Part shown: positions 2,022 through 51,865 of the stretch, piece after piece | How the letters are laid out: every line of letters begins with the position of its first letter | Numbering within the stretch: the first letter of the stretch is position 1 | DNA from: Herbiconiux flava | Lineage (GTDB): Bacteria; Actinomycetota; Actinomycetes; Actinomycetales; Microbacteriaceae | Reading direction: 5' to 3' | DNA length: 64,000 nt | Assembly (NCBI RefSeq): GCF_013409865.1 | Contig: NZ_JACCBM010000001.1 | Location: forward strand, 3,286,001 to 3,350,000 | Notes under the pieces: model-generated | Told to the model about the DNA's origin: nothing | Database searches by the model: none | What the model saw: the letters and a program-made list of their open reading frames with translations, nothing else | Translations under genes and position numbers: made by a program

Positions 2022-2029
2022 GAAGCGCC

Positions 2030-19002: not shown

Positions 19003-20237
19003 GCCCCGGCCCCCTCGTACACCCCGTATGCCGCCTCGACCGCTGCCCCCGGCGCCCCCGCCGCGCCGTTCCGCCGCAGCACCTGCTCGAGCGCGGCCAG
19101 CGTCGTCAGCACCGCGTCCTTCCGCGCGTTGTACCCCATCGTCCCGATCCGCCAGACCTTGCCGTGCAGCGGCCCGAACGAGGTGCCGATCTCGATCCCG
19201 AAGTCCTCGAGCATCTGCCCCCGCACGGCGTCGCCCGTCACCCCCTCCGGGATGCGCACCGCCACCACATTGTTCATCTTCGCCGCCGGGTCGCCGAACA
19301 CGCTCAGCCCGAGACCCTCGACGCCCGCGAGCATGGCGGCCCCGTGCATCCGGTGCCTCTCGATGGTGGCGTCGAGCCCCTCCTCGACGATGATGCGCGC
19401 GCACTCGCGGGCGCCGTAGAGCATCGTGGTGGCCTCGGTGTGATGGTTGAGGCGCTTCTCGCCCCAGTAGTCGAAGATCATGGCGAGATCGAAATAGTTC
19501 GAGCGGATGCGCGACTCACGGATCTCGTCGGAGGACCCCGCGATCCCGGCCTCGATGCTCTTGCGCGACTCGATGCGCTCGACGGCCTTCGCCGAGAACG
19601 TCGCGGGCGCCGAGCCGGACGGCCCACCGAGGCACTTCTGCAGCCCCGCCGTCACGGCGTCGAGCCCCAGCGCGTCGGCGTCGAATGCGTTGCCGGCGAG
19701 CGATGCCGTGACGTCGGTGTAGAACAGCACGCCGTGCTTCGCGCACAGCTCGCCGAGGCCCTCGAGCGGCTGGGCGAGCGTGGTGCTGGTGTCACCGTGC
19801 ACGACGGCGAGGAGGGCGGGCTTCACCCGGACGACGGCCTCCTCGATCTCGCGCTCGGTGAAGACGGTGCCCCACTCGCGCTCGATCACGTGCACCTCGG
19901 CGCCGGCGCGTTCGGCGATCTCGCGCAGCAGGTGCCCGAAGCGGCCGAAGACGGGCACGAGCACCCGGTCGCCGGGGGCGACGAGCGACAGGATGGCCGC
20001 CTCGATTCCCGCGCGGGAGGTGCCGTCGATCAGCAGCGTCTGCTCGTTCGCCGTGCGGAACACCTGGCGGTACAGGCCCATGGTCTCGGTCATGTACGCC
20101 GTCATCGCGGGGTCGTACTGGCCGACGAGCTGCGCCGACATGGCGCGCAGCACACGTGGGTCGGCGTTGATCGGGCCGGGTCCCATCAGGAGGCGCGGGG
20201 GCGGGTTGATCTGAAGCAGGTCGGGCGGCGTGCTCAT
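18999..20237 (-). CDS. pucG: Class V aminotransferase, (S)-ureidoglycine-glyoxylate type
   Basis: A 412-residue PLP enzyme of the alanine-glyoxylate aminotransferase family. The PLP lysine is K201 in LQKCLGGPSG, D175 (FYTDVTASLAG) contacts the pyridine ring, and the cofactor-cup motif is GTSRAGIEAA (72-81). In allantoin-degrading bacteria this family (PucG) transfers the amino group of ureidoglycine, the product of allantoate amidohydrolase, to glyoxylate, giving glycine and oxalurate. It is immediately upstream of and coupled to allC. ATG 20237 is chosen because of its GAGGAG site; an earlier in-frame ATG would run through the promoter. An ordinary serine/alanine-glyoxylate role is the alternative. 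Confidence 0.85.
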   Translation of the reverse strand: MSTPPDLLQINPPPRLLMGPGPINADPRVLRAMSAQLVGQYDPAMTAYMTETMGLYRQVFRTANEQTLLIDGTSRAGIEAAILSLVAPGDRVLVPVFGRFGHLLREIAERAGAEVHVIEREWGTVFTEREIEEAVVRVKPALLAVVHGDTSTTLAQPLEGLGELCAKHGVLFYTDVTASLAGNAFDADALGLDAVTAGLQKCLGGPSGSAPATFSAKAVERIESRKSIEAGIAGSSDEIRESRIRSNYFDLAMIFDYWGEKRLNHHTEATTMLYGARECARIIVEEGLDATIERHRMHGAAMLAGVEGLGLSVFGDPAAKMNNVVAVRIPEGVTGDAVRGQMLEDFGIEIGTSFGPLHGKVWRIGTMGYNARKDAVLTTLAALEQVLRRNGAAGAPGAAVEAAYGVYEGAGA

Positions 20238-27675: not shown

Positions 27676-29013
27676 TCACGCCAGGTCGGGAAGCTCCGCG
27701 AAGGCCTGGTCGTAGATCGCCAGCGCTCGCTCCGCCTCGGCATCGGTGACGACGCACGGCGGCACCACGTGCAGGCGGTTGTCCGCGGTGAACGGCAGCA
27801 GCCCGAGCGAGAGCAGCTTGCCCTTCAGCGCCGCGATGCCGGCCGCGGACAGCGGCGTCCGGGCATCCGCGTCGCTGACGAGGTCGAGCGCCCAGAACAC
27901 ACCCAGCCCGCGCACCTCGCCGATGACGTCGTACTTCGCCGCCAGCGCCGCGAGGCCCGGCCCGAGGATGTCGCGCCCGATGTGCGCGGCGTTCTCGATG
28001 ATGCCCTCCGACTCCATCGCGTCGATGGCCCCCACGATGGCGGCCATGGCGAGCGGATGCCCGGAGTACGTCAGCCCGCCCGGGAACACCGCCTCGTCGA
28101 AGATCTCGGCGATGGCCGGGCTGATGATCACGCCGCCGGCCGGCACGTAGCCGGAGTTGACGCCCTTGGCGAAGGTGATCAGGTCGGGCTCGACGAAGGA
28201 GCCGTCCTCGGCGGTCAGCGCCTGGAACGCGAACCACGACCCGGTGCGGCCGAACCCGGCCATCACTTCATCGAAGATCAGCACGATGCCGTGCCGGTCG
28301 GCCAGCGCCCGCACGCCTTCGAGGTAGCCGGGCGGCGGAACCAGCACGCCGGCGGTGCCGGGCACCGTCTCGAGCAGGATGGCGGCGATCGAGGCGGCGC
28401 CCTCCGAGACGATCACACGCTCGAGGTGCTGCAGCGCGCGGGCCGACTCCTCCTCGGGGCTCGTCGACCAGAAGTCGGAGCGATAGGCGAAGGGGCCGAA
28501 GAAGTGGGCGTGGCCGCGCGAGTACTCGTTCGGCACGCGCCGCCAGTCGCCGGTGGCGACCACTGCGGCTCCGGTGTTGCCGTGGTAGCTGCGATAGGTC
28601 GAGAGCACCTTGTCCCGGCCCGTGTAGAGGCGGGCCATCCGGATGGCGTTCTCGTTCGCATCCGCTCCCCCGTTGGTGAAGAAGACCTTGCTGTACCGGC
28701 TGCCGGCCTTCTCGAGGATGCGCTGGGCGGCCTTGCCCCGCGTGAGGTTGGCGGCGGCCGGGGCGACCGTGGTGAGCACGTCGGCCTGCTCCTTGATGGC
28801 GGCGACGACGGCGGGGTGCTGGTGGCCGATGTTCGTGTTCACGAGCTGCGAGGAGAAGTCGAGGTACTCGGTGCCCTCGAAGTCCCAGACCGTGGAGCCG
28901 AGGCCGCCGGCGATGACCATCGGCTTCAGCGAGGCCTGGGCCGACCAGGAGTGGAACACGTGGGCGCGGTCGAGCTCGAGGGCGAGCTGCTGGTCGGCGG
29001 GGTCGAGATCCAT
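27676..29013 (-). CDS. Class III (omega-) aminotransferase, probably beta-alanine aminotransferase
   Basis: A 445-residue PLP enzyme of the class III aminotransferase fold. Visible family parts are FFTNGGADANENAIRMAR (cofactor cup), LIFDEVMAGFGRTG with the pyridine-binding Asp, and the PLP lysine in ITFAKGVNSGYVPAGG. In the pyrimidine operon the natural substrate is beta-alanine, made by beta-ureidopropionase and converted to malonate semialdehyde. It is the last gene of the operon, separated from the binding-protein gene by a strong hairpin. Other omega-amino acids such as GABA remain possible. Confidence 0.85.
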   Translation of the reverse strand: MDLDPADQQLALELDRAHVFHSWSAQASLKPMVIAGGLGSTVWDFEGTEYLDFSSQLVNTNIGHQHPAVVAAIKEQADVLTTVAPAAANLTRGKAAQRILEKAGSRYSKVFFTNGGADANENAIRMARLYTGRDKVLSTYRSYHGNTGAAVVATGDWRRVPNEYSRGHAHFFGPFAYRSDFWSTSPEEESARALQHLERVIVSEGAASIAAILLETVPGTAGVLVPPPGYLEGVRALADRHGIVLIFDEVMAGFGRTGSWFAFQALTAEDGSFVEPDLITFAKGVNSGYVPAGGVIISPAIAEIFDEAVFPGGLTYSGHPLAMAAIVGAIDAMESEGIIENAAHIGRDILGPGLAALAAKYDVIGEVRGLGVFWALDLVSDADARTPLSAAGIAALKGKLLSLGLLPFTADNRLHVVPPCVVTDAEAERALAIYDQAFAELPDLA

Positions 29014-29050
29014 GGTGCGTTTCTTTCTGTCAGTGCGGTGCGGGTGGTGA

Positions 29051-29078
29051 GGGAGGGTGGCGCTGCCGCCACCCTCCC
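29051..29078 (-). terminator. Strong 12-bp hairpin between binding-protein and aminotransferase genes
   Basis: GGGAGGGTGGCG (29051-29062) and its exact complement (29067-29078) enclose a 4-base loop. On the transcript it lies 15 bases after the binding-protein stop and upstream of the aminotransferase. It could partly terminate or protect the 3' end of the highly expressed receptor mRNA. Confidence 0.6.
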
Positions 29079-29092
29079 CTGGTGGCGAGTGG

Positions 29093-30256
29093 CTACTCGC
29101 CGCCCTCCTTGAGGGTGACGTCGATGGGCGTGTAGCCCTCGCCCATCACGTCGACGCCCTCGTCCTTCAGCTCGGCGAGCGCCTTCTCGACGTACTCGTT
29201 CGAGAACGCGGTCGCGGGCGGCTCCTCCGAGATGACGGTCGCGCCGGTCTCGTTGGGGGTGTCCATGGCGATCTTCACCGTCTGGTCCCACTGGTCCTGG
29301 TTGATCGTGCCGACACCCGAGGTCGAGGGCCAGATCAGCTTGTTGACCTCGTTGGTCATCCAGAGCTGGTGGCTCTCACCGAGCTGCGAGCCCGAGGCGG
29401 TGACGATGTTCGCGGCCTCCTCCGGGTTGTCGCGGGCGTAGGCCCAGCCCTCGATCGAGGCCTTGATGAACTTCACCGCGGTGTCGGCGTAGTCGGCGTC
29501 GTCGGCCAGGCGGTCGGAGTCGGCCCAGATCGCGTCCTGGAGCATCGCGGTGCCCTCGGTGTTCCAGTCGATCACGTTGAGCTCGTCGGGCGTGAAGAGC
29601 TCGCCCGTGGCCGGGTTCTCGGTCTCGAGCACCTGCGCGTACTCGTTGTACGTCATGGCCTGGGCCGCGTCGATGTCGCCGGCGAGGAAGCCGTTCATGT
29701 CGAACGCCTGCGCCACGAGCGAGATGTCGTCGAGCTTCACGTCGGCCTTGTTCATGCCGGCGAAGAGCTCCCACTCGTTGCCGTAGCCCCAGCTGCCGAC
29801 GGTCTTGCCCGACAGGTCGGCGGCCATGGTGATGTTCTTGTCCTTCATCGAGACCTGGGTGGTGCCCGAGCGCTCGAAGATCTGCGCGATGTCGGTGACG
29901 GCCGCGCCCTGCTCGATCGATCCGAGCACCTTCGGCACCCACGAGATCGCGAAGTCGGCGTCGCCGCCCGTCAGCACGTCGATCGGCACGATGTCGGTGG
30001 CACCCTCGAGGATGGTGACGTCGAGGCCTTCCTTCTCGTAGAAGCCCTGATCCAGAGCCGCGTAGTAGCCGGCGAACTGGGCCTGCGAGAACCACTGCAG
30101 CTGCAGCGAGACGGGGGTGAGGTCGCCGTCGGAGGCCGAGTCGGTGGAGTCCGACGAACCGCCGCTCGAGCATCCGGTGAGCACGATCGCGGTGGCGGCC
30201 AGGGCGCCGATGCCGCCGATGACGCGGGAGCGGGTGAGACGTGTGCTGTGTTCCAT
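29093..30256 (-). CDS. ABC transporter substrate-binding lipoprotein (NMT1/SsuA type)
   Basis: A 387-residue receptor. The signal peptide ends in the lipobox VLTGC (Cys about residue 29), followed by a Ser/Asp-rich linker. The mature part carries LQLQWFSQAQFAGYYAALDQ, the N-terminal pattern of the THI5/NMT1-like receptors for thiamine-pyrimidine precursors and related compounds. Such receptors are common in pyrimidine/hydantoin gene clusters. A GAGGAGG site precedes ATG 30256. Together with the two permeases and the ATPase upstream, it forms a complete importer, probably for uracil, thymine or a dihydropyrimidine. Confidence 0.92.
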   Translation of the reverse strand: MEHSTRLTRSRVIGGIGALAATAIVLTGCSSGGSSDSTDSASDGDLTPVSLQLQWFSQAQFAGYYAALDQGFYEKEGLDVTILEGATDIVPIDVLTGGDADFAISWVPKVLGSIEQGAAVTDIAQIFERSGTTQVSMKDKNITMAADLSGKTVGSWGYGNEWELFAGMNKADVKLDDISLVAQAFDMNGFLAGDIDAAQAMTYNEYAQVLETENPATGELFTPDELNVIDWNTEGTAMLQDAIWADSDRLADDADYADTAVKFIKASIEGWAYARDNPEEAANIVTASGSQLGESHQLWMTNEVNKLIWPSTSGVGTINQDQWDQTVKIAMDTPNETGATVISEEPPATAFSNEYVEKALAELKDEGVDVMGEGYTPIDVTLKEGGE

Positions 30257-30354
30257 GTCGTTCCTCCTCTGGTGGTGCTGGTGGGTGGTGCGGGTGGTGG
30301 TGCCGTGGTGCGGGTGGTGCAGCTCGGGGGTGGTGCGCCGGTGGCGCGGGTGGC
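30257..30354 (-). other. C-rich, CACC-repetitive leader before the receptor gene
   Basis: In the transcript this spacer is a run of CACCAC/CACCCGCACC words with very few G. The other strand is G-rich with many GG/GGG tracts. It may be a Rho-loading region or simply unstructured RNA that keeps the strong ribosome site open. The plus strand could form a G-quadruplex. Confidence 0.4.
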
Positions 30355-31128
30355 TCAGGTGCGCGGCTTGTAGTTCCGCGTCGCGAAGGTCTCGATCGCG
30401 AGGGTGACGCAGTAGAAGACGAGACCGACGATGATGGCGCCGAGCACGTAGGCCCAGGCGAGGTTGTAGTTCGACGACGAGGCCGCCGAGGTGATCGACT
30501 TGCCGAGCCCGCCGACGGGGCCGCCGAAGTACTCGGCGATCAGCGCCGAGATCACGGCGAGGCTCGAAGCGATCCGCAGTCCGGTGAAGATGAACGGCAG
30601 CGCCCCGGGCACGGTCACCGTGCGGGTCGTCTGCCAGGCGGATGCCGCGTACACGTGCATCAGGTCGCGGTGCACCGGGCGCACCTGCCGCAGTCCCCGC
30701 AGCGTGTTGATGTACACCGGGATGAACACCGCCAGCGCCGCCACGAGCTGCCGGGCCGTCTCGGCACCTGCGCCGAACATCGTGTACAGCACGGGCGCGA
30801 GGGCGACGATCGGCACCACGGCGAGCGCCGCGACGATGCCGGCCGTCAGCTCGTCGACGACCCGCGCCAGGGCGGCGAGCACGGCGAACAGGATGCCCAC
30901 GACCCCGCCGATGACGAGTCCGACGAGGGCGTTGCCCCCGGTCACCAGCGCTCCGGCCACCACCGAGGCGATGTTGTCGCCGAACTCGGTGCCGATCGCG
31001 AGCGGCCCGGGCACGATGAACGGCTTGATGTCGAATGCGACGACGAGCAGCTGCCAGAGCGCGAGCGCGACGACACCGAGGATCACCGGCGCGAGCACGG
31101 TGCGCAGGGTGCCGGCGGATGCTCTCAT
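30355..31128 (-). CDS. ABC transporter permease (second of pair)
   Basis: A 257-residue permease of the SsuC/ThiX type with six predicted membrane segments. The coupling loop lies at DLMHVYAASAWQTTRTVTVP followed by GALPFIFTGLRIA, the conserved end of the EAA loop. ATG 31128 overlaps the ATPase stop (ATGA). Two different permeases in this operon imply a heterodimeric channel. Confidence 0.92.
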   Translation of the reverse strand: MRASAGTLRTVLAPVILGVVALALWQLLVVAFDIKPFIVPGPLAIGTEFGDNIASVVAGALVTGGNALVGLVIGGVVGILFAVLAALARVVDELTAGIVAALAVVPIVALAPVLYTMFGAGAETARQLVAALAVFIPVYINTLRGLRQVRPVHRDLMHVYAASAWQTTRTVTVPGALPFIFTGLRIASSLAVISALIAEYFGGPVGGLGKSITSAASSSNYNLAWAYVLGAIIVGLVFYCVTLAIETFATRNYKPRT

Positions 31129-31997
31129 CGGTTCTCCACGCCCTTGATTCCGACCGGGGCCTCGCCGTGCAGCAGCTCGCGCACGCGGCTGACGTTCTCG
31201 AAGAACGCCTCGTCCTCGCGCAGGTGCTCGTCGCGGTCGGCGGTGCCCGGCAGGGTGATGCTCAGGATGTCGCGGATGCGGCCGGGCCGCGGCGACATCA
31301 CGACGACCCGGTTCGACAGGAAAACGGCCTCGGGGATGGAGTGGGTGACGAACACGACGGCGGCCCCGGTCTCGCCGGTGATGCGCACGAGCTCGGTCTG
31401 CATGCGCTCGCGGGTCATCTCGTCGAGGGCGCCGAACGGCTCGTCCATCAGGAGCAAGCGCGGGCTCTCGGCGAGCGCCCGGGCGATGGCGACGCGCTGC
31501 TGCATACCGCCCGAGAGCTGGTCGGGGTAGCTCTCGGCGAAGTCGCCGAGGCCGACGAGCGCGAGCAGTTCGGCCGAGCGCTTCTTGCGCCCCGCCGAGT
31601 TGACCCCGTGCAGCTCGAGCGGCAGCTCGATGTTCGCCGCCACCGTGCGCCACGGCAAGAGGCCCGACTGCTGGAAGGCGATGCCGTACTCCTGGTCGAT
31701 GCGCGCCTGGCGGGCGGTCTTGCCGAACACGGTCAGCGAGCCCGCCGACGGTGTGTCGAGGTCGGCGATCAGGCGCAGCAGGGTCGACTTGCCGCAGCCC
31801 GAGGGGCCGATCAGCGAGACGAACTCCCCCGGCGCCACCGTCAGGTCGATGTTCTCGAGCGCCGTCACCGACGCCTTGCGCTTGGCGGTGAAGACCTTGT
31901 CGACGCCGGTCACCTGCACGGCGGCCACGCCGGCGTCGGTGGGCGAGGCCGAGCCGGCGGTGGGGACGGGTACGGCGGATGCGGATGCCTCGCTCAT
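31125..31997 (-). CDS. ABC transporter ATP-binding protein
   Basis: A 290-residue ATPase energising the pyrimidine-type importer. Walker A is GPSGCGKST, the Q-loop is IAFQQSGLLPWRTV, the signature is LSGGMQQRVAIARAL, and Walker B is LLLMDEPFGALDEMTRERM. The switch His is in FVTHSIPEAVFLS. About 25 residues at the N-terminus are an Ala/Ser-rich extension. It overlaps both neighbouring permease genes by 4 bases, so the three are translationally linked. Confidence 0.94.
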   Translation of the reverse strand: MSEASASAVPVPTAGSASPTDAGVAAVQVTGVDKVFTAKRKASVTALENIDLTVAPGEFVSLIGPSGCGKSTLLRLIADLDTPSAGSLTVFGKTARQARIDQEYGIAFQQSGLLPWRTVAANIELPLELHGVNSAGRKKRSAELLALVGLGDFAESYPDQLSGGMQQRVAIARALAESPRLLLMDEPFGALDEMTRERMQTELVRITGETGAAVVFVTHSIPEAVFLSNRVVVMSPRPGRIRDILSITLPGTADRDEHLREDEAFFENVSRVRELLHGEAPVGIKGVENR

Positions 31998-32920
31998 GCG
32001 GGCACCTCCCCTCTGCGGAAGCGCCGGAGCAGGACTCCGAGCAGGGCGATGACACCGGCGGCCACGAGGCCGACGGCGATGGCGCCGAAGATCGGCGCCC
32101 AGGTCTTGGCCGGGTCACCGGACGCCTGCTGGGCGAACTCGATGATCATCCGGCCGATGCCGCCGCGGAGGCCGATGGAGACCTCGGCGACGACGGTGCC
32201 GATCACGGCGTTGGCGGCGGCGAGCCGGAGGGCCGGCAGCAGGTAGGGCACGCTGGCCGGGAGGCGCAGGGTGAACAGCGTCTTCCACCAGCCGGCGCCG
32301 TAGCTGCGGAACAGCTCGACGTGGATCGTGTCGGGCGAGTTGAGCCCCCGGAGCGCCCCGATCGACACCGGGAAGAAGGCGAGGTAGGAGGCGATGATCG
32401 CCACCGACATCCAGCTCTCCCAGGTGAAGTCGCCGAACTCCAGCTGCGCGCCCCAGCGCCGCACCAGGGGCGCGATGGCGATCAGCGGCACGGTCTGGCT
32501 GAGCACGATCCACGGCAGCACGGCCGACTCGGCCGTGCGGAAGCGCTGCATCAGGATGGCCAGCAGCAGGCCCACCACGACACCGACGATCCAGCCGACG
32601 GCCGCGACCCCGAGGGTGAACAGCGCCGCCTGGGTGACGGCGAGCCAGACGGGCTGCGCGTTCCGGCCGTTGCCGGTCTGCTCGAACATCCGCCCCACCA
32701 TGTCCCAGACGTGCGGCATGGCCAGGTCGGTCGTGCGCGGCAGCACCGTGAGGTCGCCGATGACGACACCCGTGGCCGGGCCGATCGCCTTGTAGAGCTC
32801 CCAGACGACCACCACGAGCAACACGCCGCCCGCCCCGAAGGCGACGCGGGTCGCGGTCGTGCCCGAACGCCGCGCGGCCGGACGGCGGTCGCGGGTGCCC
32901 GACGGGGAGCGTCCGCTCAT
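31994..32920 (-). CDS. ABC transporter permease (first of pair)
   Basis: A 308-residue permease of the same class. It starts with a basic cytoplasmic tail, then a membrane helix (VAFGAGGVLLVVVVWELYKA), a roughly 40-residue external loop and five more helices. The coupling-loop region is LFRSYGAGWWKTLFTLRLPA. ATG 32920 overlaps the stop of the LLM oxidoreductase gene (ATGA), tying the importer to the catabolic enzymes. Confidence 0.9.
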   Translation of the reverse strand: MSGRSPSGTRDRRPAARRSGTTATRVAFGAGGVLLVVVVWELYKAIGPATGVVIGDLTVLPRTTDLAMPHVWDMVGRMFEQTGNGRNAQPVWLAVTQAALFTLGVAAVGWIVGVVVGLLLAILMQRFRTAESAVLPWIVLSQTVPLIAIAPLVRRWGAQLEFGDFTWESWMSVAIIASYLAFFPVSIGALRGLNSPDTIHVELFRSYGAGWWKTLFTLRLPASVPYLLPALRLAAANAVIGTVVAEVSIGLRGGIGRMIIEFAQQASGDPAKTWAPIFGAIAVGLVAAGVIALLGVLLRRFRRGEVPA

Positions 32921-33933
32921 GCCTTGGCCGTGATGTGGTCGCGGAGGGCCGGCATCACGGTCTCGCCGTACACGCGGAGGGTCTCCTCCTTGTTGTCGTG
33001 CTGCAGGTAGCCCGCGAACTGGGTCACACCGATCTCGGCGTACTGCTTGAGCTTCTCGATGTGCTGATCGGCGGTGCCGAGCACGCAGAAGCGGTCGACG
33101 ATGTCGTCGGGCACGAAGCTCGTGTGGGTGTTGCCGGCGCGGCCGTGCTCGTTGTAGTCGTAGCCCTCGCGTCCCTTGATGTACTCGGTCAGCGCATCCG
33201 GAACCGCACCGCTCTCGCCGTACTTCGCGACGATGTCGGCCACGTGGTTGCCGACCATGCCGCCGAACCAGCGGCACTGGTCGCGCATGTGCTCCCAGTC
33301 GTCGCCGATGTACATCGGGGCGGCCACGCAGAACGCGATCTCGTCGGGGTCGCGCCCGACGTTCTCGGCCGCCTTGCGGACGGTGGCGATCATCCACTTG
33401 GCGATGTCGATGTCACCGCACTGCAGGATGAAGCCGTCGCCGACCTCTCCCGTGAGCTTGAGGGCCAGCGGGCCGTAGGCGGCCACCCACATGTCGAGCG
33501 ACGAGCCCTTGCTCCACGGGAACTGCAGCGTGGCGCCGTTGTACTCGACCGCGCGGGAGTTGGCGAGCTCGCGGATGACGTGGATCGACTCGCGCAGCGT
33601 CTTCAGCGTCGTGGGCGCGCCGTTCGTGACGCGCACCGCCGAGTCGCCGCGGCCGATGCCGCAGATGGTGCGGTTGCCGTACATCTCGTTCAGCGTCGCG
33701 TAGATCGACGCCGTGACCGTCCAGTCGCGGGTGGCCGGGTTGGTGACCATCGGGCCGACCTTGATCTTGTTCGTCTCGGCCAGGATCTGGCTGTAGATGA
33801 CGTACGGCTCCTGCCAGAGCAGGTGCGAGTCGAAGGTCCAGAAGTAGTCGAAGCCGTACTGCTCGCTGAGCTTGGCGAGCCCGACGGTGCGGGCTGCCGG
33901 GGGGTTGGTCTGAACGACCGCGCCGAAATCCAT
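32917..33933 (-). CDS. LLM-class flavin/F420-dependent oxidoreductase in pyrimidine operon
   Basis: A 338-residue bacterial-luciferase-like (LLM) TIM-barrel oxidoreductase. It has the N-terminal strand MDFGAVVQTNPPAARTVGLA, the loop DYFWTFDSHLLWQEPYVI that shapes the cofactor pocket, and the conserved GPMVTNPATRDWTVTASIYA and CGIGRGDSAV regions. It lies between dihydropyrimidinase and the importer with coupled translation. No dihydropyrimidine dehydrogenase (PreT/PreA type), RutA-type uracil monooxygenase or uracil/barbiturase gene is present in the window, whereas F420 genes are. Reduction of uracil/thymine to the dihydro form, or oxidation in the reverse sense, is therefore a testable role. 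A monooxygenase role with FMN is the alternative. Confidence 0.85.
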   Translation of the reverse strand: MDFGAVVQTNPPAARTVGLAKLSEQYGFDYFWTFDSHLLWQEPYVIYSQILAETNKIKVGPMVTNPATRDWTVTASIYATLNEMYGNRTICGIGRGDSAVRVTNGAPTTLKTLRESIHVIRELANSRAVEYNGATLQFPWSKGSSLDMWVAAYGPLALKLTGEVGDGFILQCGDIDIAKWMIATVRKAAENVGRDPDEIAFCVAAPMYIGDDWEHMRDQCRWFGGMVGNHVADIVAKYGESGAVPDALTEYIKGREGYDYNEHGRAGNTHTSFVPDDIVDRFCVLGTADQHIEKLKQYAEIGVTQFAGYLQHDNKEETLRVYGETVMPALRDHITAKA

Positions 33934-33963
33934 GCTGTGTCTCTCTGTCGGTTCTCGGGTGGG

Positions 33964-35397
33964 TCAGATCAGGTACTGGCTGAGGCCGCGCTTAAAGTAC
34001 GCGCCGTCGCCCTTGCGGCCGAGGTACGCGTCGTCGTCGACGATCATGCGGCCCCGCGAGAACACGGTGTCGACGTGGCCGTCGATCTCGTAGCCCTCCC
34101 AGGCCGAGTAGTCCATGTTCATGTGGTGGGTCTTCTCCAGCCCGATGGAGGTGTGGCCGTTCGGGTCGTAGATCACCACGTCGCCGTCGGCGCCGGGCTG
34201 GATGACGCCCTTCTTGCCGTAGACACCGAACATCCGCGCCGGCGTGGTGCTCGTGAGCTCCACCCAGCGGGGCAGCGTGATCTCGCCCATCACGACGCCC
34301 TGGTAGATCAGGTCCATCCGGTGCTCGACCGAGCCGATGCCGTTCGGGATCTTCGAGAAGTCGGCCAGGCCCATGTCCTTCTGGCCCTTCATGCAGAAGG
34401 GGCAGTGGTCGGTCGAGATGACCTGCAGGTCGTTCGTGCGCAGGCCCTGCCACATGTGGTGCTGGTGACCCTCGTGCTTCGAGCGCAGCGGCGTCGAGCA
34501 GACCCACTTCGCGCCCTCGAACTCGCCCCATTCCGGGCTGGATGCTCCGAGCTGGTCCTCGAGCGAGAGGTAGAGGTACTGCGGGCAGGTCTCCGCGAAC
34601 ACGTTCTGGCCGTTGTCGCGGGCGGCGGCGATCTGCTCGACGGCCTGCTTGGCGCTGACGTGCACGATGTACAGCGGAGCCCCCGTGAGGTTCGCGAGCA
34701 TGATCGCTCGGTGCGTCGCCTCCTCCTCGGCCTGCCACGGCCGCGAGACGCCGTGGTAGTAGGGCGTGGTCTCGCCGCGCTCGAGGTGCTGCTTGACGAG
34801 CAGGTCGATGACCGAGCCGTTCTCGGCGTGCATCATGATCAGCGATCCGTTGTCGGAGGCCCGCTGCATCGCCTTGACGATCTGGCCGTCGTCCGACAGG
34901 AACACGCCCTTGTAGGCCATGAACAGCTTGAAGCTCGTGACGCCCTCGTTGATCAGCTCGTCCATCGCGGTCAGGGACGAGTCCTGCACGTCGGACAGGA
35001 TCTGGTGGAAGCCGTAGTCGACCGCGCACTGCCCGGCCGCCTTCTCCTGCCACAGGTTGTACTGGTCGAGGATGTTCTCGCCGGCGTACTGCACGACGAA
35101 GTCGATGATCGACGTGGTGCCGCCGTGCGCCGCCGCGCGGGTGCCGGTCTCGAAGGTGTCCGAGGCCTCGGTGCCGCCGAACGGCATCTGCATGTGGGTG
35201 TGCGCGTCGATGCCGCCGGGGATGACGTACTTGCCGGTGGCGTCGACGACCTGGTCGACGTTCTGTTCGATGTCGAAGCCGAGCAGCGTGCTGCCCGGGG
35301 CGAGCACCGCGGCGATGGTCTCGCCGTCGATCAGCACGTCGGCCGTGGCCGTGCCCGTGGCGTTGACGACGGTGCCGCCCTTGATCAGAGTCTTCAT
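33964..35397 (-). CDS. hydA: Dihydropyrimidinase (D-hydantoinase)
   Basis: A 477-residue binuclear-metal cyclic amidohydrolase opening dihydrouracil or dihydrothymine to the N-carbamoyl-beta-amino acid. Ligands are H66 and H68 (GGIDAHTHM), the carbamylated lysine K157 (GVTSFKLFMAYKG), His in IMMHAENGS, His in YIVHVSAKQA and Asp in STDHCPF. The substrate-loop Tyr is in AYKGVF. The length is standard. It lies 19 bases after the beta-ureidopropionase gene in the same operon, which distinguishes it from a stand-alone hydantoinase. Confidence 0.95.
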   Translation of the reverse strand: MKTLIKGGTVVNATGTATADVLIDGETIAAVLAPGSTLLGFDIEQNVDQVVDATGKYVIPGGIDAHTHMQMPFGGTEASDTFETGTRAAAHGGTTSIIDFVVQYAGENILDQYNLWQEKAAGQCAVDYGFHQILSDVQDSSLTAMDELINEGVTSFKLFMAYKGVFLSDDGQIVKAMQRASDNGSLIMMHAENGSVIDLLVKQHLERGETTPYYHGVSRPWQAEEEATHRAIMLANLTGAPLYIVHVSAKQAVEQIAAARDNGQNVFAETCPQYLYLSLEDQLGASSPEWGEFEGAKWVCSTPLRSKHEGHQHHMWQGLRTNDLQVISTDHCPFCMKGQKDMGLADFSKIPNGIGSVEHRMDLIYQGVVMGEITLPRWVELTSTTPARMFGVYGKKGVIQPGADGDVVIYDPNGHTSIGLEKTHHMNMDYSAWEGYEIDGHVDTVFSRGRMIVDDDAYLGRKGDGAYFKRGLSQYLI

Positions 35398-35416
35398 GGC
35401 TGCCCCTCCCCGGTGC

Positions 35417-36265
35417 CTACGGTGCGACGATCTCGTTGTAGGCGTCGGGACGGCGGTCGCGGTAGAACTGCCAGTCGTCGCGGGTGTCGCGGATGGCGTC
35501 GAGGTCGAGGTCGCGGATGAGCAGTTCCTCGTGCTCGCTCGATCCGAGTTCGCCGACGTAGTTGCCGCGCGGGTCGACCACGTAGCTCGTGCCGTAGAAG
35601 TCGACGGCGAGGTCGCCGTACTCGTTGTCCTCCTTGCCGACCCGGTTGGGCACCAGCACGAAGTACTGGTTCGCGCCGGCGGCCGCGGGGCCCTCGAGCT
35701 CCCAGAGGCGGTTCGACAGGCCGGGCTTGGAGGCGTTGGGGTTGAAGACGATCTGGGCGCCGTTCAGGCCGAGCTCGCGCCAGCCCTCAGGGAAGTGGCG
35801 GTCGTAGCAGATGTGCACGCCGACCTTGCCGACGGCGGTGTCGAAGACCGGGTAGCCGAGGTTGCCGGGGCGGAAGTAGAACTTCTCGTAGAAGCTCTCG
35901 AGGTGCGGGATGTGGTGCTTGCGGTACTTGCCGACGATGCTGCCGTCGGCGTCGACGACCACGGCGGTGTTGTAGTAGACGCCGGTCTGCTCCTCCTCGT
36001 AGATCGGGAGGATCGTGACCATGTTCAGCTCCTTCGCCAGCGCGGCGAAGCGCTGCACGATCGGGCCGTCGGCCGGCTCGGCGTAGCGGTAGTACTTCTT
36101 GTCCTGCGTGATGCCGAAGTAGGGCCCGTAGAACAGCTCCTGGAAGCAGATCACCTGCGCGCCCTGGGCGGCCGCGTCGCGCATGAACTGCTCGTGCTTG
36201 TCGAGCATCGACTCCTTGTCGCCCGTCCAGGTGGTCTGGGATATCGCCGCGCGGATCGTCGTCAT
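35417..36265 (-). CDS. Beta-ureidopropionase (N-carbamoyl-beta-alanine amidohydrolase)
   Basis: A 282-residue nitrilase-superfamily enzyme hydrolysing N-carbamoyl-beta-alanine to beta-alanine, CO2 and ammonia. The Glu-Lys-Cys triad is visible: E43 (ICFQELFYGPYF), K116 (KYRKHHIPH) and C153 (VHICYDRHFPEGWREL). It is first in the pyrimidine operon, with the ribosome site GAAAGGA before ATG 36265. Close relatives act on N-carbamoylputrescine, but the adjoining dihydropyrimidinase argues for the pyrimidine role. Confidence 0.92.
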   Translation of the reverse strand: MTTIRAAISQTTWTGDKESMLDKHEQFMRDAAAQGAQVICFQELFYGPYFGITQDKKYYRYAEPADGPIVQRFAALAKELNMVTILPIYEEEQTGVYYNTAVVVDADGSIVGKYRKHHIPHLESFYEKFYFRPGNLGYPVFDTAVGKVGVHICYDRHFPEGWRELGLNGAQIVFNPNASKPGLSNRLWELEGPAAAGANQYFVLVPNRVGKEDNEYGDLAVDFYGTSYVVDPRGNYVGELGSSEHEELLIRDLDLDAIRDTRDDWQFYRDRRPDAYNEIVAP

Positions 36266-36416: not shown

Positions 36417-37766
36417 ATGCTCGAACGGATCGTCGACGCGGTGGAGCACCGCACGCCCGAGGGCATCGCCGCGGCCATCTCCCGCCTCATCCGCTCGGGC
36501 TCCCTCGGCGCGGGCGACCGGCTGCCGACGGTGCGCGACGTCGCGTCGACCCTCGGGGTCAGCCCGGCCACGGTGAGCAACGCCTGGCAGGCGCTCTCGG
36601 GTGTCGGCCTGATCACCTCCCGCGGCCGGGCGGGCAGCTACGTGCTCCAGGCCGCCACGCCGTGGATGCCGCCGCACTTCGGCGAGCTCGCCGGCTCGCA
36701 CGTGACGGCCCGGCTCGACCTCTCGACCGGCACGCCCGATCCGTCGCTGCTGCCCGACCTGTCCCACGCGCTCACCAAGGTGCCCACCCGTGCCGACACG
36801 GCGAGCTACCTGAGCTCCCCGGTGCTCCCGGGGCTCGAGAAGCACCTGCGCGCATCCTGGCCCTATCCCGTCGCGTCGCTGACGATCGTCGACGGCGCCC
36901 TCGACGCCATCTCCCGCGCACTCGAGACGCTGGTGCGCTTCGGCGACCGCGTCGTGGTCGAGAACCCGACGTTCCCGCCGTTCCTCGACCTGCTCGAGAC
37001 CTTCGGGGCCGAGCGGCTGCCGGTCGACGTCGACGAGCAGGGGATGCTCCCCCGGCAGCTCGCGGACGCCCTCGCCCTGGGGCCCGTCGCCGTCATCCTG
37101 CAGCCCCGGGCGCACAACCCCACGGGCATCTCGATGGGCGCGGCGCGGGCGCGGGAGCTCGCCCGGGTGCTGCGGGCGCACGACCACCTCTGTGACCCCG
37201 TGGTGATCGAGGACGACCACTCCGGCGAGATCTCCTCGAGCCCCGCGCACAGCCTCGGCACCTGGCTGCCGCACCGCACCCTGCACGTGCGGAGCTTCGC
37301 CAAGTCGCACGGCCCCGACCTCCGCATCGCCGCGCTCGGCGGGCCGGAGGCGCTGATCGACCGGATCGTGGCGCGCCGCCTGCTCGGCCCGGGCTGGACG
37401 TCGCGGATGCTGCAGACCATCCTCTACGAGCTGCTCACCGCGCCGACCTCGGTCGACACGGTGCACGACGCCAGGCGCATCTACCAGGCCCGGCAGCGGC
37501 TGCTCTCGGAGGCGCTGGTCGAGCAGGGGCTGCCGCACGAGCCCTCCGACGGCATCAACACCTGGCTGCCGGTGGCCGACGAGAAGGCGGCGATCCTCAC
37601 GCTGGCGGCCAGCGGCATCCGCGTGGCGGCGGGCTCCTCGTTCGTCGCCGCGGCCCCGGTTCCGGATGCGCGGCCGCCGCAGTTCCTCCGCGTCACCGCG
37701 GGCCGCGTCGTCGACGACTTCGACGCCGTGGCCGCCCTCCTGGCCGCCGCCGCCCGCGCCGAGTAG
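36417..37766 (+). CDS. MocR-type regulator (GntR helix-turn-helix plus aminotransferase fold)
   Basis: A 449-residue fusion. Residues 1-75 are a GntR winged helix-turn-helix (RLPTVRDVASTLGVSPATVS), and residues about 90-445 are a class I aminotransferase fold. The likely PLP lysine is in VRSFAKSHGPDLR, preceded by VIEDDHSGEIS. MocR-type factors sense PLP or amino-group compounds and usually regulate a divergent operon. Here that is the pyrimidine operon, whose product beta-alanine would be a sensible effector. There is no strong ribosome site before ATG 36417 (ACCGGGG is the nearest match). Confidence 0.87.
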   Translation: MLERIVDAVEHRTPEGIAAAISRLIRSGSLGAGDRLPTVRDVASTLGVSPATVSNAWQALSGVGLITSRGRAGSYVLQAATPWMPPHFGELAGSHVTARLDLSTGTPDPSLLPDLSHALTKVPTRADTASYLSSPVLPGLEKHLRASWPYPVASLTIVDGALDAISRALETLVRFGDRVVVENPTFPPFLDLLETFGAERLPVDVDEQGMLPRQLADALALGPVAVILQPRAHNPTGISMGAARARELARVLRAHDHLCDPVVIEDDHSGEISSSPAHSLGTWLPHRTLHVRSFAKSHGPDLRIAALGGPEALIDRIVARRLLGPGWTSRMLQTILYELLTAPTSVDTVHDARRIYQARQRLLSEALVEQGLPHEPSDGINTWLPVADEKAAILTLAASGIRVAAGSSFVAAAPVPDARPPQFLRVTAGRVVDDFDAVAALLAAAARAE

Positions 37767-37829: not shown

Positions 37830-38087
37830 ATGGCGACGATCACGGTGCGAGATCTCGAAGACGGCACCAGGGAGCGACTGCGCGTCAGGGCGGCCCGCAA
37901 CGGGAGGTCGATGGAGGCCGAGGCGCGCCAGATCCTCACCTCAGCTGTGGCGAGCGAGCCGGCCGACACGGCCGGGGTGGGCAGCCGCATCCGGTCGCTG
38001 TTCGCCGACGTCGGGTACGCCGACGATCTCGCCGATCTGCTGCCCGAGCGCGCCGCACCGGCTGATCGCGTCGACTTCGACCGATGA
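37830..38087 (+). CDS. FitA/VapB-type antitoxin
   Basis: An 85-residue antitoxin with an N-terminal ribbon-helix-helix DNA-binding domain (MATITVRDLEDGTRERLRVR, then AARNGRSMEAEARQILTSA), the FitA/Phd-type pattern. The acidic C-terminal part (FADVGYADDLADLLPE) would bind and block the PIN toxin. Of two adjacent ATGs, 37830 has the better distance from GAAGG; 37827 is possible. The stop overlaps the toxin start (ATGA). It should also repress its own promoter. Confidence 0.88.
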   Translation: MATITVRDLEDGTRERLRVRAARNGRSMEAEARQILTSAVASEPADTAGVGSRIRSLFADVGYADDLADLLPERAAPADRVDFDR

Positions 38088-38503
38088 TCCTGCTCGACAC
38101 GAACGTGGTGTCCGAACTCCTTCGCGCTCAGGCCGCGAGTCAGGTCGTCGACTGGACCGACCGGCAGCCGGCCCACGAGCTGTGCCTCTCGGCCGTCACC
38201 CTCGCCGAGCTGCTGCAGGGGGTCGCACTCCTGCCGGCCGGCACGCGTCGCAGCGAGCTCGGCCGCCGGGTCGCGCACCTCGTGACACACGAGTTCGACC
38301 GGCGCATCATCCCGTTCGACGCCGAGTGCGCCGTCGAGTTCGCCGACGTGGTCGCCTCGCGCCGCCGTCTCGGCCGCCCCATCACCCCCTTCGACGCCCA
38401 GATCGCGGCGAGCGCACGCGTGCACGGCGCCCTCCTCGCCACCCGCAACGAGCGCGACTTCGAGCACACCGGCCTCCCCGTCGTGAACCCGTGGCTCCCC
38501 TGA
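38084..38503 (+). CDS. FitB/VapC-type PIN-domain toxin
   Basis: A 139-residue PIN-domain ribonuclease. The acidic metal-binding residues are D5 (ILLDTNVVSELLR), E42 (VTLAELLQGV), D104 (ITPFDAQIAASA) and D125 (ATRNERDF). The N-terminus and length match FitB/VapC toxins. It is coupled to the antitoxin gene. The active site looks intact, so the pair is probably functional. Confidence 0.9.
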   Translation: MILLDTNVVSELLRAQAASQVVDWTDRQPAHELCLSAVTLAELLQGVALLPAGTRRSELGRRVAHLVTHEFDRRIIPFDAECAVEFADVVASRRRLGRPITPFDAQIAASARVHGALLATRNERDFEHTGLPVVNPWLP

Positions 38504-39642: not shown

Positions 39643-39667
39643 CGCGCGCATGGGATTGAATGGGGGC

Positions 39668-40660
39668 GTGAAGGTGACGGTTCTCGCAGGCGGTGTCGGA
39701 GGTGCACGGTTCCTGAGGGGGCTGCGCACCCAGCTGAGGAAGGCGTACCCGAACGGCGACGGCGGCTCGACCGCCGAGGTCACGGCGGTCGTCAACACCG
39801 GCGACGACATGTGGCTGACCGGCCTCCGCGTCTGCCCCGACCTCGACTCGATCATGTACACGCTCGGCGGCGCCAACGACGACGAGCGCGGTTGGGGCCG
39901 GAAGGACGAGAGCGAGCGCGTCAGCGCCGAGCTCACCGCCTACGGCGTCGGTTGGCCGTGGTTCACCCTCGGCGACCTCGACCTCGGCACCCACATCGCG
40001 CGCACCAGCTTCCTGCGCGACGGCCTCACCCTGACCGAGGCCACCGCCCGGCTCACCGAGCGCTGGAACCCGGGTGTGAAGCTCCTCCCGATGAGCGACG
40101 AGCCGGTCGAGACGCACGTCGAGATCATCCTCGACGGCAAGCGCCGCATCGTGCACTTCGAGGAGTGGTGGGTGAAGCACCGGGCGGGCGTTCCGGCGCA
40201 GCGCTTCATCCAGGTGGGGGCGGATGCGGCGAAGCCGACCCCGTCGGTGCGGCGGGCGATCGAGCAGGCCGACGTGATCCTGGTGGCCCCGTCGAACCCC
40301 GTCGTGTCGATCGGCACCATCCTCGGAGTGCCCGGCATCCGCTCGGCGCTGCACGAGGCCCGCGCCCCGATCGTCGGGGTCTCCCCCATCATCTCGGGCG
40401 CGGCCGTGCGCGGCATGGCCGACGCCTGCCTCACGGCGATCGGCGTCGAGACGACCGCCGCGGCGGTGGCGAAGCACTACGGCTCCCGCTCGCGGGGTGG
40501 CCTGCTCGACGCCTGGCTGATCGACGAGAGCGACGCGGCGAGCGCCCCGGTCATCGAGTCGGCGGGCATCCGCACCTCGGTGGTGCCCCTCTGGATGCGC
40601 GACCCCGACACGAGCGCCCAGCTCGCCGCCGACGCCCTGGCCGCGGCCGCCCGCCGCTAG
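39668..40660 (+). CDS. cofD: 2-phospho-L-lactate transferase (F420 synthesis)
   Basis: A 330-residue enzyme (FbiA in actinobacteria) that joins the activated phospholactate/phosphoenolpyruvate moiety to the deazaflavin FO. It starts with the family hallmark VKVTVLAGGVGGARFLRGL and shows VVNTGDDMWLTGLRVCPDLD, RLTERWNPGVKLLPMSD and PSNPVVSIGTILGVPGIR. GTG 39668 gives the usual N-terminus; an ATG at 39650 in the same frame is possible. It is not next to cofE here, unlike the fbiAB arrangement of mycobacteria. Confidence 0.94.
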   Translation: MKVTVLAGGVGGARFLRGLRTQLRKAYPNGDGGSTAEVTAVVNTGDDMWLTGLRVCPDLDSIMYTLGGANDDERGWGRKDESERVSAELTAYGVGWPWFTLGDLDLGTHIARTSFLRDGLTLTEATARLTERWNPGVKLLPMSDEPVETHVEIILDGKRRIVHFEEWWVKHRAGVPAQRFIQVGADAAKPTPSVRRAIEQADVILVAPSNPVVSIGTILGVPGIRSALHEARAPIVGVSPIISGAAVRGMADACLTAIGVETTAAAVAKHYGSRSRGGLLDAWLIDESDAASAPVIESAGIRTSVVPLWMRDPDTSAQLAADALAAAARR

Positions 40661-43289: not shown

Positions 43290-45962
43290 ATGCCCGAAGA
43301 TCTTCCGTTCCCCACGTCCACGGGCGTGCGCGCCACGGGCCGCAGCACGGCCCCCGCCCCCGTCGAGCAGACGTTCGTGCCGAACGCCTCGGCCATCCGC
43401 CGTGCGCTGAAGCGCGCCGAGACGGGCGTCGCCCTCGACGCCACCGAGGCCGAGACGCTGCTGCACGCCCGGGGCGACGACCTCGAGCGGCTCCTCACCG
43501 CCGCCTCCCGGGTGCGCGACGCCGGCCTCGAGATCGCAGGCCGCCCCGGCGTCATCACCTACTCGCGCAAGGTCTTCATCCCGCTCACCCACCTCTGCCG
43601 CGACCGCTGCCACTACTGCACCTTCGTCGAGACGCCCGGTGGTCTCGAGAAGCAGGGCAAGGCGCCCTTCCTCTCCCCCGACGAGGTGCTCGCGATCGCC
43701 CGCGAGGGCGCGGCGCTGGGCTGCAAGGAGGCGCTGTTCACCCTCGGCGACCGCCCCGAGGAGCGCTGGCCCGTGGCCCGCGAATGGCTCGAGGCCCGTG
43801 GCTACGACTCCACCATCGCCTACCTCCGCGCGGTCGCGATCCTCGTGCTCGAGGAGACCGGCCTCCTCCCGCACCTGAACCCCGGGGTGATGACCTGGGA
43901 GGAGATCCAGCGCCTGAAGCCCGTCGCCCCGTCGATGGGCATGATGCTCGAGACCACCGCCGACCGCCTCTGGAGCGAGAAGGGCGGGCCGCACTACGGC
44001 TCCCCCGACAAGGATCCCGTGGTTCGCCTGCGCGTGCTCGAGGACGCCGGGCGCTCGAACGTGCCCTTCACCACCGGCCTGCTGCTCGGCATCGGCGAGA
44101 ACTACGCCGAGCGCGTCGACGGGATGTTCTCCATCCGCTCGGCCGCCCGCCGGCACGGTCACGTGCAGGAGGTGATCATCCAGAACTTCCGCGCGAAGCC
44201 CGCGACCGCCATGATGGCCGCCGACGACCTGGAGACCCAGGAGTACGTCGCGGCAGTCGCCGTGGCGCGGCTCGTCCTCGGCCCGAAGGCTCGGGTGCAG
44301 GCTCCGCCGAATCTGACGGATGCGCGTGAGCTGGGTCTCCTCGTGCGCGCCGGCATCGACGACTGGGGCGGCGTCTCGCCGCTCACCCCCGACCACGTGA
44401 ACCCCGAGCGCCCGTGGCCGCACATCGACGACCTGGCCCGCCTCACCGCGGAGGCCGGCTTCGAGCTGCGCGAGCGGCTCACGGCGCACCCCCACTTCGT
44501 GCGCGCCGAGGAGCCCTGGATCGACCCCCGCGTCCTCCCCCACGTCCGCGCCCTCGCGGGGCCCGACGGGCTGGCCGTCGAGGGGCGCATCCCGGTCGGG
44601 CTACCCTGGCAGGAGCGGGACTGGACCTCCTCGGGCTCCGGCCGCACCGAGCTGCACACCGAGATCGACACGATCGGCCGCACCGGCGACCGCCGCAGCG
44701 ACTTCGAGGACGTCTACGGCGACTGGGCCGAGCTGCGCGAGCACGTCGGGGCGAACGAGGGCACGGCGCCCCGCGCATCCGGAGACCCAGCGATACGGAG
44801 CGCCCTGGCCCGTGCCGCGGAGGACCCGGCCGGCCTGAGCGACACCGACTACCTCACCCTGCTCGGCGCCGACGGCCCCGACCTGGAGGCCCTCGCGGCC
44901 CTCGCCGACGACGTGCGCCGGGCGACCGTGGGCGACGAGGTCGGCTACGTCGTGAACCGCAACATCAACTTCACGAACGTCTGCTACACGGGCTGTCGCT
45001 TCTGCGCCTTCGCTCAGCGGCGCACCGACGCCGACGCCTACACGCTGTCGATGGAGCAGGTCGGCGACCGCGTCGACGAGGCCTGGATGATCGGGGCCAC
45101 CGAGATCTGCATGCAGGGCGGCATCCACCCCGACCTGCCCGGCTCGGCGTACTTCGACCTGGCGCGCACGGTGAAGGCGCGGCAGCCCGACATCCACCTG
45201 CACGCGTTCAGCCCGATGGAGATCGTGAACGGCGCCTCGCGCACCGGGCTGTCGTACCGCGACTTCCTGCTCGAGGCGAAGGCGGCGGGGCTCGACTCGA
45301 TCCCGGGCACGGCCGCCGAGATCCTCGACGACGACGTGCGCTGGGTGCTCACCAAGGGCAAGCTGCCGGCCGCCGCGTGGATCGACATCGTCTCGACCGC
45401 GCACGACATCGGCCTGCGCTCCTCGTCGACCATGATGTACGGGCACGTCGACAACCCCTCGCACTGGGTCGGGCACCTGCGCACGCTGGCGCGGGTTCAG
45501 GACGAGACCGGCGGGTTCACCGAGTTCGTGCTGCTGCCGTTCATCCACATGAACGCCCCCGTCTACCTCGCCGGCGTCGCCCGGCCGGGGCCGACGAGGC
45601 AGGAGAACCGGGCCATCCACGCGGTGTCGCGGCTGATGCTGCACGGGCGCATCGACCACGTGCAGACCTCGTGGGTGAAGCTCGGCAACGCGGGCACGCA
45701 GCAGATGCTGCAGGGCGGCGCCGACGACCTCGGCGGCACCCTGATGGAGGAGACGATCAGCCGCATGGCAGGTGCCGACAACGGCTCCGAGAAGACGGTC
45801 GACGAGCTCGAGCGGATGATCGGGGAGATCGGCCGCGTGCCGGTGCAGCGCACCACGACCTACGGCCGCCCCACGGCCGAGCGCGTCGCGGTCGCCCGCG
45901 AGTTCGCCTCGCAGGGCTTCGCGGCCACGGGCCGCACCCTCCACACGAACCTCCTGGCCTGA
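43290..45962 (+). CDS. cofGH: FO synthase, fused CofG-CofH (FbiC)
   Basis: An 890-residue bifunctional radical-SAM enzyme making the F420 chromophore FO from tyrosine and a riboflavin precursor. The N-terminal CofG half has the cluster C103-C107-C110 (CRDRCHYC) and the C-terminal CofH half has C565-C569-C572 (CYTGCRFC). HAFSPMEI in the C-terminal half and [20 protein letters not shown] in the N-terminal half are family hallmarks. The length is that of actinobacterial FbiC. It stands alone and is followed by a clear terminator. Confidence 0.97.
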
Positions 45963-51220: not shown

Positions 51221-51865
51221 GGCCGCCGGAGGCTTGAGGCTCTCGAGCACTCGGGCGGTGGCGGGGCCGACGCCGCGGCGCCAGGCCTGCTGCAGCTCGG
51301 CCTCGGTGTCGACGTCGTGGCGCAGGGTCGAGTCGTCGCCGAGCGCCAGGGCGACGTGACCGGCGGCGCGGTGGCGCCCGGCCGAGCCAGCTCCGAATCG
51401 GGGCACGAGTCCGGCGCCGGCCGTGCTCCCGGCCGCGGTGATGAGCGTGGTGCCCGAGCCCTCGGCGTCGGCGACGAAGGCGAGCGGATGCGCGTACGCG
51501 GCCTCGAGCGCCTCGTCGACGTCGCCCGCCACGAGCGTGGGCAGGTCGCCGAGCATCGCGGCCGTCGGCCCGTCATCGGCGGCGGCGATGCCGCGGGCGA
51601 CAGCCGCGTTGAGCCCCTCACCCGGATCGTCGAGCACCTCGACACCGGGCACCGTCTCGCGGAGCCGGGCGGCGATCGACGACCCGGCATCCGTCACCAC
51701 GATCACTCGGCCGACCGTGCGGGCGGCCCGCAGCGCGGCGACCGCGTCGAGGGTGAACGCCTCGGCGAGCAGCAGGCGCTCTTCGGCGGAGCGCTCGGGC
51801 ATCAGGCGGCTCTTGCCCTCGGCGGTGCCTTTGACGGGTACGACGAGGGTCCACGGGGAAGTCAT
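51203..51865 (-). CDS. cofC: 2-phospho-L-lactate/PEP guanylyltransferase (F420 synthesis)
   Basis: A 220-residue nucleotidyltransferase (FbiD) that activates phospholactate or phosphoenolpyruvate with GTP for CofD. It starts with WTLVVPVKGTAEGKSRL, the family's VPVK motif, and has VIVVTDAGS, AMLGDLPTL (metal-binding Asp) and SGTTLI. A -10 box GATAAT ends 8 bases before ATG 51865, so the mRNA is probably leaderless. It is separate from the other F420 genes in this window. Confidence 0.92.
   Translation of the reverse strand: MTSPWTLVVPVKGTAEGKSRLMPERSAEERLLLAEAFTLDAVAALRAARTVGRVIVVTDAGSSIAARLRETVPGVEVLDDPGEGLNAAVARGIAAADDGPTAAMLGDLPTLVAGDVDEALEAAYAHPLAFVADAEGSGTTLITAAGSTAGAGLVPRFGAGSAGRHRAAGHVALALGDDSTLRHDVDTEAELQQAWRRGVGPATARVLESLKPPAASVLQQ

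Follow-up and report, generated by a model that had tools for sequence, protein, structure and literature searches.

Which enzyme carries out the first, reductive step of pyrimidine catabolism in Herbiconiux flava? The question is raised by an operon in a 64,000-nucleotide stretch of its genome (contig NZ_JACCBM010000001.1, positions 3,286,001 to 3,350,000; "the window" hereafter). As the initial annotation had proposed, the operon, whose eight genes all lie on the minus strand, encodes the second and third steps of the pathway along with a four-part importer. The second and third steps are represented by a dihydropyrimidinase (PydB) and a likely beta-ureidopropionase (PydC), the pair of genes by which we recognize a Pyd operon. 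Next to the dihydropyrimidinase gene lies the gene for an oxidoreductase of the luciferase-like monooxygenase (LLM) superfamily (32917-33933), here simply called LLM. The LLM stop codon overlaps the start codon of an importer permease gene in the sequence ATGA (32917-32920), and the same ATGA overlap occurs at the next two junctions. These three successive overlaps (LLM, permease, ATPase, permease) confirm the proposed translational coupling of LLM to the importer. We propose that LLM is an F420H2-dependent uracil (probably also thymine) reductase that carries out the first step of reductive pyrimidine catabolism in place of PreTA/dihydropyrimidine dehydrogenase (DPD), and we consider this very likely on the comparative evidence presented here.

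The absence of a recognizable DPD, previously noted for the window, holds for the entire genome (3.85 Mb, completeness 99%). As the criterion for DPD or PreA we used a DHOD-type FMN domain (PF01180) accompanied by an iron-sulfur domain, and for PreT we used PF14691, the domain with which both PreT and GltD begin. The sole PF01180 protein in the genome is a quinone-type PyrD (512 bits, cut-off 433) and the sole PF14691 match is GltD (677 bits, cut-off 448), encoded beside a GltB fragment; the PreA model has no match in this genome at E 1e-30. The oxygenase RutA was also considered, and the best relative in the genome scores 379 bits, below the cut-off of 498, at another locus. A second route for uracil may still exist in this genome. 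The RutA relative itself (contig C1, about 632,260-633,294; L171:1477-2544, minus strand) lies beside a DszA-like LLM protein, as judged by eye, and an open reading frame near it has no family match.

LLM is a member of TIGR03842 (576 bits over residues 2-330, curated cut-off 295), which NCBIfam classes as a 'hypoth_equivalog'. PF00296 is its only Pfam domain, and the DHOD-type domain that characterizes DPD is absent. The nearest PDB sequences are those of the F420-dependent methylenetetrahydromethanopterin reductases (Mer), aligned at full length with an E value of 1e-37. LLM keeps motifs of the Mer alignment, for example GPxVTNP and GxGxGD, and scores 143 bits on the Mer model TIGR03555, below its cut-off of 349. 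The RutA model TIGR03612 is not among the 23 families that match LLM at E 0.001. A segment at residues ~222-263 (RWFxxMVGNHVAD...GYDY..HG) aligns to Mer only through gaps, and its residues are not conserved in Mer. Invariant residues in this segment, including W222, F223, H230, D233, Y238, R255, Y260 and H263, are common to 37 TIGR03842 rows. We regard the segment as the likely substrate site. The protein in the window is about 37-45% identical to proteobacterial and Chloroflexota rows (a tree was also built), and the named relatives among its best 120 matches are mostly Microbacteriaceae, for example Agreia.

We used the genomic neighborhoods of LLM in other organisms to examine its association with pyrimidine catabolism. 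A profile search with one genome per species gave at least 589 confirmed loci, the best 80 of which form a sample that leans to the profile's first sequence, from Leisingera; 40 Actinomycetota loci and three plasmid loci were added. Tallies are over the 120 genome loci, plasmids excluded, and count tblastn matches at bit thresholds that we set, taking the best non-overlapping match per place. PydB or PydC is found near LLM in 41 of 44 Actinomycetota loci, 11 of 11 Chloroflexota loci, 31 of 62 Pseudomonadota loci (one Deltaproteobacteria metagenome-assembled genome, MAG, is counted in this group) and one of three other loci; PydB is near LLM in 69 of the 120. PreT and PreA are not among the best matches in the 123 LLM loci and the window. 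In 33 of the 62 Pseudomonadota loci, cofG, H, D and E are upstream of LLM, on the same strand and within 9 kb, and in 32 of these 33 npdG is directly upstream of LLM. (The four cof genes occur anywhere in the stretch at 35 loci, from which L077 and L104 were dropped because the genes stop short of LLM.) Two unrelated types of PydC and two types of importer alternate around LLM, with an ABC importer at 27 loci, an NCS1/CodB permease at 31, both at none and neither at 62. RutR-like regulators are near LLM in 29 of the 62 Pseudomonadota loci. Cytosine deaminase, whose product is uracil, has matches near LLM in L066, L069, L074, L106, L134 and L138, and cytosine permeases are neighbors in a few loci. 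These RutR-like regulators, NCS1/CodB permeases and occasional cytosine deaminase neighbors point to uracil as the substrate. As a separate observation, two Alphaproteobacteria MAGs (L097 and L104) have more than one TIGR03842-like match in tandem beside NpdG.

Individual clusters illustrate how complete the module can be. For instance, one side of the Leisingera caerulea locus encodes an NCS1 nucleobase symporter, dihydropyrimidinase, a Zn-dependent hydrolase, an omega-aminotransferase and both transhydrogenase subunits, and the divergent side encodes cofG-H-D-C-E, npdG, LLM and a RutR-related regulator (194 bits on RutR, below the cut-off of 368). This gene set suggests a flow of reducing power from NADH to NADPH (PntAB), then to F420H2 (NpdG) and finally to uracil. 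In Paracoccus alcaliphilus the cof genes, npdG, LLM and an ABC importer occur together, and Paracoccus denitrificans DSM 413 (L040) has the cof run, LLM, PydB, PydC and an NCS1 permease, with no PreA above cut-off in its genome. In the gammaproteobacterial order of Halomonas denitrificans, we read seven of the ten LLM genomes further; five have a RutR-like gene, the cof run, npdG, LLM and PydC, and PydB is present in four of these five.

As a control, to which we give the greatest weight, we collected all 19 PreA loci above cut-off, six from the LLM genomes tested and 13 from the gammaproteobacterial order, and scored their neighborhoods for matches of 80 bits or more. Every one of the 19 has a PreT match beside PreA. 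PydB and PydC occur together in 11 loci and a RutR-like regulator in eight; the importer is of the window's ABC type (homologous binding proteins) in five and an NCS1 permease in four; and cytosine deaminase is present with CodB in two. Eight of the 19 lack PydB in the stretch, some of the stretches ending at a contig end. None of the 19 has an LLM or cof match. LLM with its F420 supply replaces PreT-PreA in clusters that are otherwise alike.

The clusters also bear on what LLM acts upon. One could suppose that another imported heterocycle, such as hydantoin or a 5-substituted or thiamine-type pyrimidine, is reduced or opened ahead of dihydropyrimidinase. The NMT1/THI5 type of the importer, the promiscuity of dihydropyrimidinases and the retention of PreTA beside LLM in Leisingera genomes would all fit. 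We nevertheless regard this as very improbable given that RutR-like regulators, NCS1/CodB permeases and, in a few loci, cytosine deaminase adjoin LLM and that the same importer type serves five of the 19 PreTA loci. There is similarly little chance, in our estimate, that LLM uses F420H2 to reduce a later intermediate, for example malonate semialdehyde from beta-alanine, while another enzyme reduces uracil. An aminotransferase is near LLM in some clusters, the legend of a Pyd gene cluster figure (PMC7332683) mentions a malonic semialdehyde reductase (PydE), and the LLM superfamily includes F420-dependent alcohol dehydrogenases (1rhc is among the PDB relatives). However, the best PDB relatives are Mer rather than Adf, the aminotransferase match is missing at many loci, and LLM is absent from all 19 PreTA loci, even those with an aminotransferase; moreover, a role at a later step would leave most LLM genomes tested without a known uracil-reducing enzyme.

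If LLM is an F420H2-dependent uracil reductase, its carriers should be supplied with F420, and nearly all of those examined are. CofD is present in the genomes of 71 of the 80 LLM loci: locally in 41, elsewhere above cut-off in 29 and just under it in L111 (251 bits). The genome of L097 has CofG, CofH and CofC and lacks a CofD match. Among 248 Actinomycetota genomes examined, 54 are LLM-positive; in these 54, the only ones in which CofD was scored, it is above cut-off in 51 (the other three having a 253-bit match, a frame-split match and none), and PreA is above cut-off in none. Of 194 genomes in the order of Halomonas denitrificans, 64 have CofD and ten have LLM, and all ten LLM genomes have CofD (Fisher p 9e-6, kinship ignored); PreA is found in 13, none with LLM or CofD above cut-off.

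The only coherent group in which we saw neither CofD nor CofG consists of seven Devosia/Pelagibacterium genomes. In Devosia sediminis (L079:4871-10999), LLM follows FGD (510 bits, cut-off 420), CofE (223 bits, cut-off 181) and a putative F420-0 ABC importer, whose components score 431 (binding protein, cut-off 392), 436.6 (permease, cut-off 437.35) and 337 (ATPase, cut-off 372). The other six loci (L078, L080, L081, L085, L089 and L106) have tblastn matches to CofE and an ABC ATPase near LLM. To judge from these genes, the Devosia group may be F420 users that import the precursor F420-0. Identical operons in organisms unable to make F420, which would have spoken against the initial annotation, were not seen among the loci examined. 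A conceivable reading is that LLM reduces or oxygenates uracil with FMNH2 or NAD(P)H and that the F420 link merely reflects annotation and the actinobacterial background, as the superfamily holds FMN enzymes such as RutA that attack uracil. This reading is hardly credible in view of the physical tie to F420 genes seen at 33 of the 62 Pseudomonadota loci, the CofE and ABC genes (in one annotated locus an F420-0 import cluster) near LLM in the group without CofD and CofG, and the lack of a RutA match among the families of LLM.

How does the proposed F420H2-dependent uracil reductase compare with known systems? DPD (mammalian DPD, bacterial PreTA/PydA and clostridial PydAc) catalyzes the reaction that we propose for LLM; PreTA clusters share PydB, PydC, RutR-like regulators, importers and, in two loci, cytosine deaminase with LLM clusters. 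DPD contains FMN and iron-sulfur clusters and receives its electrons from NAD(P)H or ferredoxin, whereas LLM is a single 338-residue protein without a DHOD-type domain and its hydride donor would be F420. Mer is the nearest solved relative in sequence, but LLM occurs in a pyrimidine context and not in C1 metabolism, and the segment at ~222-263 is specific to TIGR03842. RutA, the pyrimidine oxygenase of the Rut pathway, belongs to the LLM superfamily and attacks uracil, the substrate proposed for LLM, and many proteobacterial LLM clusters have RutR-type regulators; however, RutA is an FMN oxygenase and LLM does not match its model at E 0.001.

Related proposals exist in the literature. PMC7332683 describes the reductive pathway together with the PydA variants and the gene clusters in which they occur. 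In the relevant passages of PMC12507026, the authors suggest an F420 luciferase-family reductase in Chloroflexota uric acid clusters. Going by its description, this putative enzyme would likewise be an F420 LLM protein standing in for a reductase of the DHOD type or YgfK, on a reductive route for nitrogen heterocycles, but its substrate belongs to the uric acid/yanthine route. According to the corresponding passages of PMC10714638, a putative F420/FMN oxidoreductase of napsamycin and mureidomycin biosynthesis (NpsU / SSGG-03002) reduces the uracil C5-C6 bond, as shown genetically. Again by description, the putative F420/FMN reduction of this bond is the likeness, and antibiotic tailoring instead of catabolism is the difference. 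The literature searched, which was mostly open-licence, yielded no description of a catabolic uracil reductase that depends on F420, and there was no mention of TIGR03842 in the open-licence literature searched. The words 'uracil' and 'dihydropyrimidin' are absent from the main text of an F420 review (PMC8498797), and two further papers (PMC10143877 and PMC8097209) share terms with the topic, with content that is not relevant in the parts concerned.

Several observations count against LLM as the uracil reductase of these organisms. Only 19 of the 33 Pseudomonadota loci with a cof run show PydB or PydC, and 31 of all 62 lack both in the stretch examined, although some stretches simply end (Leisingera L037-L039). 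The Devosia/Pelagibacterium LLM genes have no PydB or PydC match beside them. Local cof genes are missing in two of the seven gammaproteobacterial LLM genomes read further (G422 and G450), and one MAG (L105) has neither CofD nor CofG above cut-off. The exclusion of LLM and PreA in the 194 genomes is not significant (Fisher p = 1.0), because both are rare there. PreA is also present in six of 50 LLM genomes tested (50 of the 80). In Limimaricola and two Leisingera genomes LLM is accompanied by a complete PreTA-PydBC cluster, so that LLM is redundant there or has another role; it may be needed under different conditions or for a related base. Lastly, in the passages of PMC10714638 that concern it, the mureidomycin uracil-ring oxidoreductase yielded no product in vitro.

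Taken with these points, the original idea of an F420-dependent LLM enzyme acting on uracil and dihydropyrimidine survives the comparative tests that we ran; the substrate of LLM, the direction of the reaction, the position of hydride transfer, the use of thymine and the identity of the F420 reducer in H. flava are what we infer. The base would be imported by the ABC importer in the window or by an NCS1/CodB permease elsewhere. F420 would be reduced from NADPH by NpdG where npdG is in the cluster, and in H. flava perhaps by an FGD-superfamily protein. The hydride of F420H2 would then go to C6 of uracil, with a proton added at C5. Dihydropyrimidinase and ureidopropionase would open the ring, releasing ammonia and CO2 along with beta-alanine, whose amino group the aminotransferase would take.

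The genes for this scheme in the window are listed in Table 1. PydC has both N-carbamoylputrescine amidase and beta-ureidopropionase among its nearest PDB relatives and falls under the N-carbamoylputrescine amidase cut-off; its specificity for beta-ureidopropionate is likely. The aminotransferase, previously annotated as a likely beta-alanine aminotransferase, is a class III enzyme, and its beta-alanine specificity is presumed, since NF004718 is a subfamily without an assigned function. CofC, CofD, CofE and CofGH are all encoded in the window as first annotated, above curated cut-offs and 3 to 20 kb from the upstream end of the operon. The protein first described as an FGD-like F420 reducer passes the superfamily model TIGR03557 but misses the FGD equivalog (214 bits versus 420); its top model is the FMN-type TIGR03885, which it also misses (304 bits versus 399).

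Table 1. Genes of the pyrimidine operon, the divergent regulator and the F420-related genes in the window.
Feature	Position	Strand	Basis
Nitrilase-type PydC, likely nitrilase-fold beta-ureidopropionase	35417-36265	-	CN_hydrolase domain
PydB, dihydropyrimidinase (hydA)	33964-35397	-	TIGR02033, 545 bits (cut-off 393); dihydropyrimidinase is nearest PDB chain
TIGR03842 LLM enzyme, proposed F420H2-dependent uracil/thymine reductase	32917-33933	-	338 residues; TIGR03842, 576 bits
Importer permease, coupled to LLM gene	31994-32920	-	PF00528; ATGA overlap
Importer ATPase	31125-31997	-	PF00005; ATGA overlap with upstream permease gene
Importer permease	30355-31128	-	PF00528; ATGA overlap with ATPase gene
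NMT1/THI5-type importer binding protein	29093-30256	-	PF09084
Class III aminotransferase, proposed (presumptive) beta-alanine aminotransferase	27676-29013	-	NF004718, 711 bits (cut-off 472)
MocR/GntR-type regulator, divergent	36417-37766	+	GntR and aminotransferase-type domains
CofD	39650-40660	+	TIGR01819, 352 bits (cut-off 257)
CofGH (FbiC)	43290-45962	+	NF006687, 1458 bits (cut-off 1018)
CofC	51203-51865	-	TIGR03552, 122 bits (cut-off 105)
CofE domain, inside open reading frame 55251-57275	about 55464-56162	-	TIGR01916, 219 bits (cut-off 181)
FGD-superfamily LLM protein, possible F420 reducer	56183-57484	-	TIGR03557, 274 bits (cut-off 210)

The window carries a MocR-type regulator where many proteobacterial clusters carry a RutR-like regulator. 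From its position as well as its domains, this protein possibly controls the operon, and its ligand, sensed through pyridoxal phosphate (PLP), might be beta-alanine or a different amine. A PIN-domain protein (38084-38503, plus strand) is encoded between the pyrimidine operon and the F420 genes. Elsewhere in the window are an allantoinase (11517-12953, plus strand; TIGR03178, 562 bits, cut-off 358) and an allantoate amidohydrolase (17635-19404, minus strand; NF006775, 515 bits, cut-off 479), and the window therefore resembles a region for nitrogen-heterocycle catabolism. At 186-3648 (plus strand), a cytosine-deaminase-like amidohydrolase, under family cut-offs, precedes a second pair of ABC ATPase and permease; these genes may import and deaminate another base.

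Based on these data, a third type of uracil reduction has strong comparative support, and LLM probably represents a new class of enzyme, acting at a step already known and belonging to a module common to distant phyla. We think it probable that single-subunit reduction of uracil by an LLM enzyme with F420H2 is this third class across Actinomycetota, Chloroflexota and Proteobacteria, that the cof genes travel along with it in many Proteobacteria, where uracil and thymine catabolism may be the main reason for having F420, and that Devosia and its relatives import F420-0 for the same enzyme. If so, TIGR03842 would acquire a function and uracil reduction a third chemistry, the synthesis of F420 in scattered Proteobacteria would be explained, and a small enzyme free of iron-sulfur clusters would provide a route to dihydropyrimidines.

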